Made by a program: the position numbers and the translations under genes | Shown here: positions 10,070 through 14,865 of the stretch, piece after piece | How the letters are laid out: each line of letters starts with the position of its first letter | Position numbering within the stretch: the first letter of the stretch is position 1 | From: Dehalococcoidia bacterium | GTDB lineage: Bacteria; Chloroflexota; Dehalococcoidia; Lucifugimonadales; UBA1127 | Assembly: GCA_029936935.1 (NCBI GenBank) | Contig: JAPYRQ010000008.1 | Coordinates: 1 to 41,236, forward strand | DNA: 41,236 bases | Direction of reading: 5' to 3' | The notes under the pieces: generated by a model | Databases searched by the model: none | The model's input: the letters and a program-made list of their open reading frames with translations, nothing else | What the model was told of the DNA's origin: nothing

Positions 10070-11314
10070 TTATTCGCGGCGGAGGGCTTCAATGGGATGG
10101 AGTTTGGCTGCTTGCATGGCTGGATAACTACCGAAGAATAACCCTATACCACCTGAAACGACCATTGATAGTGCTGCGATGTCCGTACTGAACGATGTGT
10201 TAAGTGTCGAGCTCCCAAATTTGATTCCGTCGAGCACCTGCGTCAAACCTAAGCCCAAAGCTACACCCAAGAATCCACCCGTAAGGCTCAACAGAACAGC
10301 CTCAACTAGAAATTGAGATAGAATATCTCTGCGTTTCGCCCCCATTGCCTTGCGGATACCAATCTCTCGTGTTCGCTCCGTCACCGACACCAACATAATA
10401 TTCATGATCCCGATGCCACCTACTAGTAGCGATATGCTGGCGATTGCACCTAAGAACAACACGAACGTGTTCGTGGTCTCTTCCAATGCTTCAATTGTTT
10501 CTTGTTGGTTAGTGATCGTGAAGTCGTCTTCATCAGTGATACGATGTCGGATTCGAAGGATATTGGTGATCTCGTCGACCGCAGCATCCGTTGCCTCTTC
10601 GTCCCGCACTTTAACATTCACAACTTGTACGCTGATTTCACCCTGAGGTGTCCTCTGCGTTCCCAGACGATAGTAGGCGGTACTAATGGGAACATAAGCT
10701 TGGTCATCTTGGTTACCAAATCCACCGGAACCCTTGCTTTTCATCACGCCAATGACCTCAAAATCTCGACCATTTACTCTAATCGTCTGGCCGATGGGCT
10801 CACGGAACCCGAAAAGGTTCTCAACAACATCCGGACCCAATATGATGACTTGTGAAGCCATATTTATGTGTGTTGAAGTGATTGATTGCCCCTTTTCTAT
10901 CTCAAAGCTACGTACAGATAGGTATTCAGGGGTAATACCTATCAACCGAGTATTGGAGTTTTCCCGTTGATAAACCAACTGACCTCGGAGTTGCGTCTCT
11001 GGCGCCACAGAAACAACAGAGGGGGCCAGTATCGGGTCTGTTAACGCCAGGGAGTCCTCTAGAGTGAGGTTGGCTGCACTACCCTGGGCTCCACTGAATC
11101 CAAAAGAGCTGGTTGCCCCGGAACGAATAAAGAGTAAATTGGTGCCCAGGGATTCGATACGAGAGGTTATGGATTCCTGTGCTCCACGTCCGATGGCCAT
11201 CAAAGTTATGACGGCGGATACGCCGATGATGATACCTAGCAGCGTTAGGCCAGAACGCAGCTTATTAGAGTTCAGTGCGTCTATAGCGATGAAAAATGTG
11301 GTGAAGAAATTCAT
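10070..11314 (-). CDS. MacB-like ABC transporter permease
   Basis: Integral membrane subunit of a MacB/FtsX-type (type VII) ABC transporter, which couples cytoplasmic ATP use to movement of substrate outside the membrane. At 414 aa it has an N-terminal membrane helix (GLTLLGIIIGVSAVITLMA), a MacB-PCD extracytoplasmic domain of about 220 residues, and three C-terminal helices (about 290-405) in the FtsX fold with the conserved VTERTREIGIRKAMGAKR turn. It ends in the usual HPIEALRRE. The start codon overlaps the stop of the ATPase gene as ATGA, indicating coupling. The ATPase domain is a separate gene, unlike MacB itself. Confidence 0.9.
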   Translation of the reverse strand: MNFFTTFFIAIDALNSNKLRSGLTLLGIIIGVSAVITLMAIGRGAQESITSRIESLGTNLLFIRSGATSSFGFSGAQGSAANLTLEDSLALTDPILAPSVVSVAPETQLRGQLVYQRENSNTRLIGITPEYLSVRSFEIEKGQSITSTHINMASQVIILGPDVVENLFGFREPIGQTIRVNGRDFEVIGVMKSKGSGGFGNQDDQAYVPISTAYYRLGTQRTPQGEISVQVVNVKVRDEEATDAAVDEITNILRIRHRITDEDDFTITNQQETIEALEETTNTFVLFLGAIASISLLVGGIGIMNIMLVSVTERTREIGIRKAMGAKRRDILSQFLVEAVLLSLTGGFLGVALGLGLTQVLDGIKFGSSTLNTSFSTDIAALSMVVSGGIGLFFGSYPAMQAAKLHPIEALRRE

Positions 11315-12033
11315 AAATCCACTCCGTTTGAACTAATACCCGCACCAGCTGTAAGCGGAATTGTAACTGGAGCATCATTCACCACATGGCCATCACGGAA
11401 AGAAACGATTCGGTCAGTGTGTTGGCCAACGTTTGCTTCATGAGTTACCAAAAGAACTGTTAGCCCTTCGTCCCGATTTAATCGCTGCAAAACGGTCAAT
11501 ATTTCATCACTGGACTTAGAGTCTAGATTACCGGTAGGCTCATCAGCTAGAAGGATCGAGGGATTCTTGACCAGTGCCCGAGCGATGCCAACTCTTTGTT
11601 GTTCTCCACCGGAGAGTTCAACAGGCCGATGCAGAGCTCTATTGTGCAATCCGACCTTATACAATGCTTCCATAGCTCTGTTTCTTCTGTTGTGTCCATC
11701 CCCATACATCAACGGCATCTCTACGTTACTCAGTGCAGTGGCGCGAGGTAACAAGTTATAGGTTTGAAAAACAAACCCAATTTTGTTATGACGTATTTCC
11801 GCAAGTTGGTTGTCATTCATTTGACCTACATCTTCGCCCTCAAGGACATACTGGCCAGAAGTGGCTACATCTAAGCAGCCAAGAATGTTCATCATTGTAG
11901 ATTTGCCGGAGCCAGAAGGACCCATTATTGCCAGCATTTCTCCTTGCGACACAGTAAGGCTTACATTTTGTAGGGCAGCAACTTCCACGCTGCCCATCTG
12001 GTAGATTTTGGAGATATCATGAATATCTATCAT
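11311..12033 (-). CDS. MacB/LolD-type ABC transporter ATPase
   Basis: Cytoplasmic ATPase that drives the adjoining permease. The 240-aa product has Walker A GPSGSGKST near residue 40, the Q-loop in FVFQTYNLLPRATALSNVE, signature LSGGEQQRVGIARAL, Walker B ILLADEPTGNLDS and the H-loop VTHE; all catalytic elements are intact. The order adaptor-ATPase-permease on one strand defines a tripartite-like exporter. It lies 44 bases after the adaptor gene. The substrate cannot be deduced; relatives handle lipoproteins, peptides or antibiotics. Confidence 0.93.
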   Translation of the reverse strand: MIDIHDISKIYQMGSVEVAALQNVSLTVSQGEMLAIMGPSGSGKSTMMNILGCLDVATSGQYVLEGEDVGQMNDNQLAEIRHNKIGFVFQTYNLLPRATALSNVEMPLMYGDGHNRRNRAMEALYKVGLHNRALHRPVELSGGEQQRVGIARALVKNPSILLADEPTGNLDSKSSDEILTVLQRLNRDEGLTVLLVTHEANVGQHTDRIVSFRDGHVVNDAPVTIPLTAGAGISSNGVDL

Positions 12034-12077: not shown

Positions 12078-14036
12078 TCACCTGGTTCTGGCGCCTTGTC
12101 CCCTGCCTGAACTGCCTTGGCCGCCGGAATTACCACCGCCAAGGCCGCGCATTTGTTGCATCATTTGGCGGAATTCGGCCCTCGGATCAGAGGAGCCAGC
12201 TTGGGTGGTTGAAACAACCATGTCGCCCTCTTCGACACCTGTTAAAGCGATGGTCCAGAAGCCGTCACTAGTCCCCAGCGTGACTTCACGTTCAGTAACA
12301 GTGTCACCTTGACTAATTAGCACTGTTGGTTGGTCGATGGTTCCCGCGATAGAAGTACTCGGGATGAGCAGGACATCGGATTCTTTTTCAATCACGATCC
12401 TTGCGGTTGCGTTCATTTGCTCTCGCAACCTCAAACGACCAGGGGTTTGCACTTGGATTCGAACAGGGAAGGTCACCACACCCTGCTGGTTGGTGCCAAT
12501 CGGAGATACATTGGTGACCACACCGGGAAATTGCGGTCCCGGTAGGCTGTCGAGCGTTATAAGGGCATCTGCCCCGACGCGCACCATGAGGACATCAATC
12601 TCATCTAGTCGGGCGTCTACCTCTGCGATGGAGGAGTCGACTACCTCGAACGCTAAGTTATTCGCGCCTGAGGTTCGTCCTTCTACGACACCCACTTTGC
12701 TGATGAATCCGTTAAATGGTGCCTTGAGCACCGCCAACTCCAACTGCTGTTTGGCTGTGCCAACCTTTGCTGTGGCTCCATTCAATTCCGCCTTTTTCAG
12801 AGCCAAGGTCAATTTGTCTGGTAAAGCTATGAGATCTGCCAATGTTTCGTTGGCGTCCTCAAGCTGTGCGGAAGCCACTTCCATATCGCGTTGTTTCAAC
12901 ACGATTTCTAGGGAGTTCACGCCATCTAAGGTTGTTTGTAACTTATCTACTGCAGTATTAAGTACTGTGGTCGCTGTATCTACTGCCTTTAAAGAAGTAG
13001 ATATTGTCTTTGCGGCGGTAGTATCTGCAGCCGTCCATGCGCTAGCTGCTTTGTCCAATACTTCCCATGATTTATCGATTTCGGTTCGAACACAGATGTC
13101 TTGTTTGACCAACGTGAGTTTTGCACACGTGCCATAGATGTTTCCGGGGTACAGCGAGAGCCAGGTATAAACAGTAAACTCGCTCCAATCGGTATCAGGA
13201 TCTTCAACCAGATCTGGAGTGAATGCCAAAATCGAGTGGATCTTAGCGTCGCGTTGGAGGGGTGCGAAAAGGAAACCCAAATCTATTGCATGCCAGGAAA
13301 GGAATTCGTCAGGAGTCGTTTCGTATTCTGCTTCGACCAGTTTGATTCCGAGGAATTTGTTGATTGTAACCTGATAGTCTGCCTTCGCATTGTTAAGAGC
13401 ATCTGTTGCAACTTGGACCTTTGATGCTTGATTGACTTGTTGGAATGCTAGATCATTTTGAGCGCTTCCAAGCGCTGATGTTGCCGTCGTTTTATGGCTT
13501 TGGAGTTCTACCAACGCTGCCAATGTAGCAGGTTCTTGTATGTCAGCGAGGGCATCAGTGGATTGATCAAGTTTCAATTCTGCAGAGGCGACTGCTGCAC
13601 GGGCTTTAGCCAATCCCAGATCGGTTTGGGGTTCCTGGGCCAATGCATAGGCGTTTGTAGCGTCTTGTAGGTTAACCTGAGCTTGAGCCAAATCCTTTTG
13701 GAGTTGGGCCACGGTGTCGTCGTCTAAGCGCGCCAGTATTTTCCCCGTCTGCACTTGATCACCCACTTCTACAGACACCTCGGCCACTGTTCCCTGGGAA
13801 CCGAAGTACAGGCTTTCACGAATGGGGAACACAATGCTGCCACTGCTGGTAATCTGGTTGATGAGATCGCCCTTTCGCACCTCGACAAACTGTTGGCCGT
13901 CTTCCAGCGGCTCACTATCGGATGAGTCGCTTTGGGTGTAGGCGTACCCGCCGCCCGTCGCTCCCAACACCACGACCGCGATAGTGATTGCCTGCCAGAC
14001 CTGAAGCGTCTTCAACCAGTTGATCAGTGCTCCCAT
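12078..14036 (-). CDS. HlyD/MacA-like adaptor protein with long coiled-coil and insert
   Basis: Membrane-anchored adaptor of an ABC exporter. The 652-aa product has one N-terminal membrane helix (about 15-33), a first half of the split lipoyl domain (GTVAEVSVEVGDQVQTGKILARLD, 82-105), long alanine/glutamine-rich coiled-coil arms (about 110-225 and 325-440), and the second lipoyl half (LKAPFNGFISKVGVVEG). A beta-barrel and membrane-proximal domain follow, and a Gly/Ser/Arg-rich tail closes the protein. The usual length is 350-450 aa. The excess includes a 90-residue aromatic, cysteine-containing insert at about 228-318 placed between the coiled-coil arms. GGAGGAAGTCC precedes the ATG. The next genes are the matching ATPase and permease. 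Confidence 0.88.
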   Translation of the reverse strand: MGALINWLKTLQVWQAITIAVVVLGATGGGYAYTQSDSSDSEPLEDGQQFVEVRKGDLINQITSSGSIVFPIRESLYFGSQGTVAEVSVEVGDQVQTGKILARLDDDTVAQLQKDLAQAQVNLQDATNAYALAQEPQTDLGLAKARAAVASAELKLDQSTDALADIQEPATLAALVELQSHKTTATSALGSAQNDLAFQQVNQASKVQVATDALNNAKADYQVTINKFLGIKLVEAEYETTPDEFLSWHAIDLGFLFAPLQRDAKIHSILAFTPDLVEDPDTDWSEFTVYTWLSLYPGNIYGTCAKLTLVKQDICVRTEIDKSWEVLDKAASAWTAADTTAAKTISTSLKAVDTATTVLNTAVDKLQTTLDGVNSLEIVLKQRDMEVASAQLEDANETLADLIALPDKLTLALKKAELNGATAKVGTAKQQLELAVLKAPFNGFISKVGVVEGRTSGANNLAFEVVDSSIAEVDARLDEIDVLMVRVGADALITLDSLPGPQFPGVVTNVSPIGTNQQGVVTFPVRIQVQTPGRLRLREQMNATARIVIEKESDVLLIPSTSIAGTIDQPTVLISQGDTVTEREVTLGTSDGFWTIALTGVEEGDMVVSTTQAGSSDPRAEFRQMMQQMRGLGGGNSGGQGSSGRGQGARTR

Positions 14037-14190: not shown

Positions 14191-14823
14191 TTAATGGCCC
14201 TCAGCTTCGTTTTCTTCAATGACCTTGTCTATCACCTGCTTGAAGAACTCATACGGGTGCGCACCGGTGAATAGGTATTTCCCGATAGTGAAGGCCGGAA
14301 TGCCGTTGATCCCGTGCGCCTGTGCTTCCTGGTATTGATGTTGCACAGTGTTTGTATGGGTCTGCTGCTTCAAGGCTTCTGCAAGCTTCTCCGGATCCAA
14401 CCCCACCTCTACGGCTGCTGCTTGAAGAACGGATAGCTGCTCAATGTCCTCGCCCCGCTCCCAATACGCACGGTAGACCGCGTGGTGGAAAGGTATCTCA
14501 AGCCCGTTCTGCTTCGCGTGCTCCGTGGCTTCCAGCGCCGGGACTGTATACGGCGTGTGAGGACTTCGTCGCATGGTGAGGCCAGCTTCTTCCGCCAGAG
14601 TCCGAAGCGGCTCGTTCAGTTCACCGTTGGAGCCCTCGCCCTCACGGGGTTGCCGTTCCCGCCCACCGGGTTGGATGTCAGGACGGAGGAAGAACGCGTG
14701 GGTCTCAACCTCTATGGAGTATTCCTCTTGGAGCCGTGTCAGCCTGTCCAGGCCGATATAGCACCAAGGTCATATGTAGTCATACCAAACAGTGATGGGA
14801 ATTGTCTGCGTCTTGCTCGCCAT
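14191..14823 (-). CDS. FrnE/DsbA-like oxidoreductase, probable selenoprotein (TGA at codon 18)
   Basis: Thioredoxin-fold protein of the DsbA/2-hydroxychromene-2-carboxylate isomerase family, FrnE branch, acting in cytoplasmic thiol-disulfide chemistry; no signal peptide is seen. Read from ATG 14823 it is 210 aa, with a single in-frame TGA at codon 18 (14770-14772). The context is WYDYI-TGA-PWCYIGLDRL; relatives read DxxCPWCYIG, so TGA stands exactly at the first catalytic cysteine, giving U-P-W-C. The remaining frame is intact to the TAA at 14191, including the family motif GINGIPAFTIGKYLFTGAHPY. AGAGGG precedes ATG 14823, and TATACT with an extended TGA motif (14866-14871) lies upstream. A frame starting only at 14574 would lack the active site. 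The alternative is a nonsense pseudogene. Confidence 0.8.
14739..14756 (-). promoter_or_regulatory. Candidate bacterial SECIS hairpin after the TGA codon
   Basis: On the mRNA strand the stem TCGGCCT-GGAC-AGGCTGA folds as seven pairs (one G-U) with a four-base loop starting GG. The loop lies 21-24 bases after the TGA at 14770. Bacterial SECIS elements have a short stem shortly downstream of UGA with a G in the first loop bases, so position and loop fit. It is a small structure, and folding was judged by eye. Confidence 0.55.
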
Positions 14824-14865
14824 GGAATACCCTCTGCATGTAGTTGCGCCTGGATTTGTGGCGAC

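Follow-up and report, generated by a model that had tools for sequence, protein, structure and literature searches.

The question raised by this locus is whether a DsbA-like gene with a stop codon at its first catalytic position is a broken gene or a gene for a selenoprotein. In the window, i.e., the whole 41,236-nt stretch analysed, the minus-strand frame starting at ATG 14823 was found to read MASKTQTIPITVWYDYI-TGA-PWCYIG, with the TGA at codon 18 as its sole internal stop and 192 more codons following it up to a TAA (Table 1). The coordinates and codon counts of the original prediction were right for this frame, and so was its point that automated annotation misses the active site: all that a mechanical ORF finder reports is the 127-aa part from ATG 14574, which begins downstream of UPWC. 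With the TGA read through, residues 10–198 matched the Pfam family DSBA (PF01323) at 116.5 bits (cut-off 25.6), and the 127-aa remainder, which begins after the active site, scored 66.6 bits. Regarding the two signals that had been claimed upstream of the ATG, the ribosome-binding site stood, with AGAGGG located 6 nt before the start codon, whereas the extended -10 is unsupported: TGATATACT is visible by eye only, and a promoter scan found no sigma-70-like site upstream of ATG 14823. The gene adjoins a divergent FmdB-like zinc-ribbon gene (PF09723; 15003–15368, plus strand) with ordinary CxxC motifs; FmdB selenoproteins with UxxU have been reported in GOS data.

Table 1. Positions of the features of the predicted selenoprotein gene in the window, and of a second DsbA-family gene in the same genome.
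Feature	Position	Strand	Remarks
Predicted Sec-containing FrnE/DsbA-like oxidoreductase gene	14191..14823	-	210 aa if the TGA encodes selenocysteine; ends with TAA 14193-14191
Predicted selenocysteine codon, TGA codon 18	14770..14772	-	First catalytic position of UPWC; from the frame and aligned relatives
Cys21 codon	14761..14763	-	Single cysteine of the protein; probably the resolving residue in UxxC
Bacterial SECIS-like hairpin	14727..14768	-	Core stem 14756-14739 with apical loop GGAC at 14749-14746; folding energy -21.5 kcal/mol (z about -3)
Pro176 of GINGIPAF	14296..14298	-	Cis-Pro loop presumed for the thioredoxin fold; corresponds to GITGVPFF in the alignment with D. radiodurans FrnE
AGAGGG	14830..14835	-	Ribosome-binding-site-like, 6 nt upstream of the ATG
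Short 127-aa ORF	14191..14574	-	Call of a standard finder; not the real gene start
Second DsbA-family gene	L002:1351-1986 = G000:C25:28221-28856	-	One in-frame TGA; VFFDYT-U-PFVYNAAVW

The family was found to be present in 144 of 393 genomes of the class Dehalococcoidia, and most of the listed places contained exactly one internal TGA. A comparison of 91 fetched loci, among them the window gene itself and a duplicate (L054, apparently the same contig region as L025 of genome G337), showed that the column of codon 18 contains TGA in 68 loci, Cys in the other 23 and any other residue in none. The motif around this column is [IVL]-U/C-P-[WFY]-C, and PxC follows the column in all 91 loci. Since so many loci contain TGA at this exact column and all others contain Cys, a chance event is excluded. 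This is in agreement with the original prediction, which had argued that the TGA replaces the redox Cys exactly and not by chance, and had proposed a search for relatives in which TGA aligns with Cys. A seeming TAA at the catalytic column of genome G108 (L068) was rejected; this locus has Cys there, and its single stop is located elsewhere in the alignment. The GTDB contig collection, when scanned, yielded only L054, which is a near-identical sister record (91% identity), and one weak match from Deltaproteobacteria. When a tree was computed with column 18 left out, at least 11 switches between Sec and Cys forms were required, compared to 20.5 with shuffled labels, and the starred branches force at least five switches.

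Folding of the 50 nt starting at the TGA gave one hairpin, which sits directly downstream of the codon. It fits the published description of bacterial SECIS elements, in which a small apical loop containing a G is located directly after the UGA (PMC1088965). Among 67 distinct Sec sequences, 89% of the cells of stem columns 17–24 with 28–35 were paired, compared to 66% in the 23 Cys forms, and the number of stem pairs per sequence differed accordingly between the two forms (Mann–Whitney p = 3e-7). Pairing fell to 28–60% when the partners were slid by 1–4 columns, and the observed value was reached by none of 2000 partner shuffles. Besides, a G occupied the first position of the apical loop in 65 of the 67 Sec forms, compared to 11 of the 23 Cys forms. 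Members of the genus to which the window belongs have a stem displaced by one pair, and the same G lies within their loop. Folding energy alone did not separate Sec from Cys forms (p = 0.86), whereas pairing at the fixed stem columns and the G in the loop did, and the hairpin of one locus (L027) was barely better than shuffles (z -0.4). Four stem pairs showed compensatory changes on both sides, e.g., C-G, G-C and U-A at 21–31, in a set of 16 diverse sequences picked by hand, the count over 67 sequences being the unbiased one.

The genome (2.05 Mb in 105 contigs, 94.6% complete) was found to contain a tRNA-Sec (70.8 bits; anticodon tca (UCA) according to ARAGORN), selA (555 bits), selB (341 bits) and a Sec-type selD (380 bits), which are the genes that the original prediction had proposed to search for. 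In the selD gene (L020, G000:C99:11065-11988), an in-frame TGA occupies the known position of Sec (AHCAGUAAK), and SelD is thus a selenoprotein itself. Across the class, selA was detected in the genomes of 96 of 112 places with TGA, compared to 14 of 37 TGA-free places (Fisher p = 5e-8), a comparison in which the places are phylogenetically related rather than independent and the genomes are drafts. The remaining 16 TGA-bearing places, one of them from the same genus, are in genomes without a detected selA, which is likely due to missing contigs in the draft assemblies.

Machinery, TGA/Cys column, intact frame and independent genomes agree with the original prediction of selenocysteine at the first catalytic position. 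We therefore regard the gene as almost certainly encoding a selenoprotein, namely a probably cytoplasmic DsbA-like thiol/disulfide oxidoreductase of the FrnE subfamily with selenocysteine as its first catalytic residue, and we infer very strongly from these sequence data that selenocysteine would indeed be inserted at codon 18. A pseudogene formed by nonsense mutation, with the 127-aa C-terminal ORF or nothing expressed, would account for a stop codon that breaks the frame and for an ORF finder that sees the short part alone, but it is highly improbable. The TGA is common to 67 other records with 31–91% identity to the window gene. Frameshifts or extra stops, which the original prediction had suggested looking for in relatives, were not encountered: the TGA was the sole stop within the alignment in all 68 TGA forms, and the best tblastn alignments cross the TGA without a frameshift. 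Comparisons with three same-genus relatives showed purifying selection on both sides of the TGA, with pN of 0.02–0.23 vs. pS of 0.39–0.81 for codons 1–17, and pN of 0.05–0.17 vs. pS of 0.47–0.71 for codons 19–83, which are located upstream of the short-ORF start and show a pattern resembling that of the undisputed part of the gene. The low pN compared to pS before the short-ORF start shows that the region discarded by annotation is selected as protein-coding. The hairpin, too, is conserved specifically in the TGA forms, and a pseudogene is refuted by a column in which TGA is conserved and only Cys occurs in its place.

An error of sequencing or assembly that turned TGC or TGT into TGA is less probable still. 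The window is a draft contig from a 105-contig assembly, but the same TGA, for which a read error had been named as a point to check, is present in three other, independent genomes of the same genus (G337, G239, and G352), which rules out a read error, and it recurs in many families of the class. Reassignment of TGA throughout the genome, e.g., to Trp or Gly, or readthrough without selenocysteine, is about as improbable as a pseudogene. The frame is equally open with TGA read as W or G, and indeed under any residue reading; however, neighbouring genes, e.g., those at 11311–12033 and 12078–14036, are terminated by TGA, which shows that this codon has kept its standard meaning. Relatives without TGA invariably have Cys at the homologous position and never Trp or Gly, the Trp codon in the selenoprotein gene is TGG, and tRNA-Sec, selA, selB, and selD are all present.

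The closest solved sequence to the predicted selenoprotein was that of Deinococcus radiodurans FrnE (DR_0659, PDB 5cnw; residues 5–201, E 1e-18), whose CPWCYIG aligned to UPWCYIG and whose GITGVP aligned to GINGIP. According to PMC8945050, FrnE proteins are predicted cytoplasmic thiol oxidoreductases of the DsbA family, and for D. radiodurans FrnE a role as disulfide reductase of the cytoplasm has been proposed, with a C-terminal CX4C regenerating the active site. The window protein belongs to this subfamily in that its nearest solved structures are FrnE and its active site is of the CP(W/F)C type (motif as given in PMC8945050). It differs from the D. radiodurans protein by having Sec for the first Cys and, because Cys21 is its single Cys, by having no C-terminal CX4C. 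The same source describes CX4C as present in many FrnE proteins and not obligatory; like the window protein, the D. maricopensis and S. roseofulvus FrnE proteins lack it (PMC8945050). A cytoplasmic location appears probable from this membership and because no obvious signal sequence is present. No NCBIfam equivalog was found, the match to the DsbG-like selenolipoprotein family NF041057 scoring 48 bits compared to a cut-off of 190.

As the likely mechanism, SelB carrying Sec-tRNA-Sec would bind the mRNA hairpin directly after the codon once translation arrives at UGA codon 18, and Sec would be inserted in place of termination. In the resulting enzyme, Sec18 would attack substrate thiols or disulfides to form a mixed selenenylsulfide, Cys21 would resolve this adduct to give a UPWC selenenylsulfide, and an outside reductant would regenerate the latter. 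The redox direction and the substrates of Sec-FrnE in this scheme are presumed ones.

COG2761, under which related selenoproteins have been filed, is the COG of FrnE. Nine DsbA-like UxxC selenoproteins from the Sargasso Sea were assigned to it in 2005 (PMC1088965), and the GOS study of 2008 described 63 sequences with PF01323 and UxxC as 'DsbA 1', commoner in marine samples (PMC2398784). Besides, a DsbA-like selenoprotein was listed for 41 organisms in a 2016 report, and 'DsbA-like protein form 1' is included in a 2026 review (PMC13188914). The window gene, which likewise has PF01323 and UxxC, was compared to these by description and resembles them also in the apical-G hairpin after UGA, the widespread Cys homologues and the marine origin. 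They differ in being known from metagenomic reads or other phyla, and the searched passages of the 2005, 2008, 2016 and 2026 papers do not mention Dehalococcoidia or assign the family to this class. Titles and abstract openings of the literature on selenoproteins together with Dehalococcoidia, Chloroflexi, SAR202 or Chloroflexota did not report the gene either. Thus, the DsbA-like UxxC selenoprotein family is already known from marine metagenomes, and the window gene is a confirmed further member of it. The 'new selenoprotein' of the original prediction was upheld as a selenoprotein and as new for the gene and the lineage, but not for the kind, which dates back to the UxxC proteins of 2005 (PMC1088965).

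A second DsbA-family gene with one in-frame TGA was found in the same genome. Its motif, UPFV, contains a lone selenocysteine and no resolving Cys, and among 12 fetched loci, of which this gene is one, the catalytic codon was TGA in 11 and Cys (CPFV) in one. UPFV fits the five UxxV sequences described as 'DsbA 3' in the GOS study (PMC2398784), a subfamily distinct from that of the window gene in having a lone Sec without a resolving Cys. Two UPFV relatives, L123 and L126, contained, in addition to the TGA, a further TAA or TAG inside the match range of the profile search, whereas their tblastn alignments contained the TGA only; the extra stop may be the true gene end.

These results correct a gene that is cut at its active site by automatic annotation, and they link a selenoprotein family, for which metagenomic reads have been the main source, to a host lineage. 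What they add is the lineage context, i.e., a widespread and often Cys-switching Sec-FrnE across the class Dehalococcoidia, and a second DsbA-family selenoprotein, with lone Sec in UxxV, in the same genome. Sec-FrnE may be a core redox selenoprotein that occurs throughout Dehalococcoidia and has largely escaped description, with marine Dehalococcoidia as a main source of the anonymous DsbA-like selenoproteins of ocean metagenomes, a proposal that we consider about evenly balanced between true and false. If it is true, the repeated switching between Sec and Cys would be a natural series for asking which properties a disulfide oxidoreductase gains from Sec, and the switches within one class, at least 11 in number, provide a good set of Sec and Cys enzymes of otherwise similar sequence.
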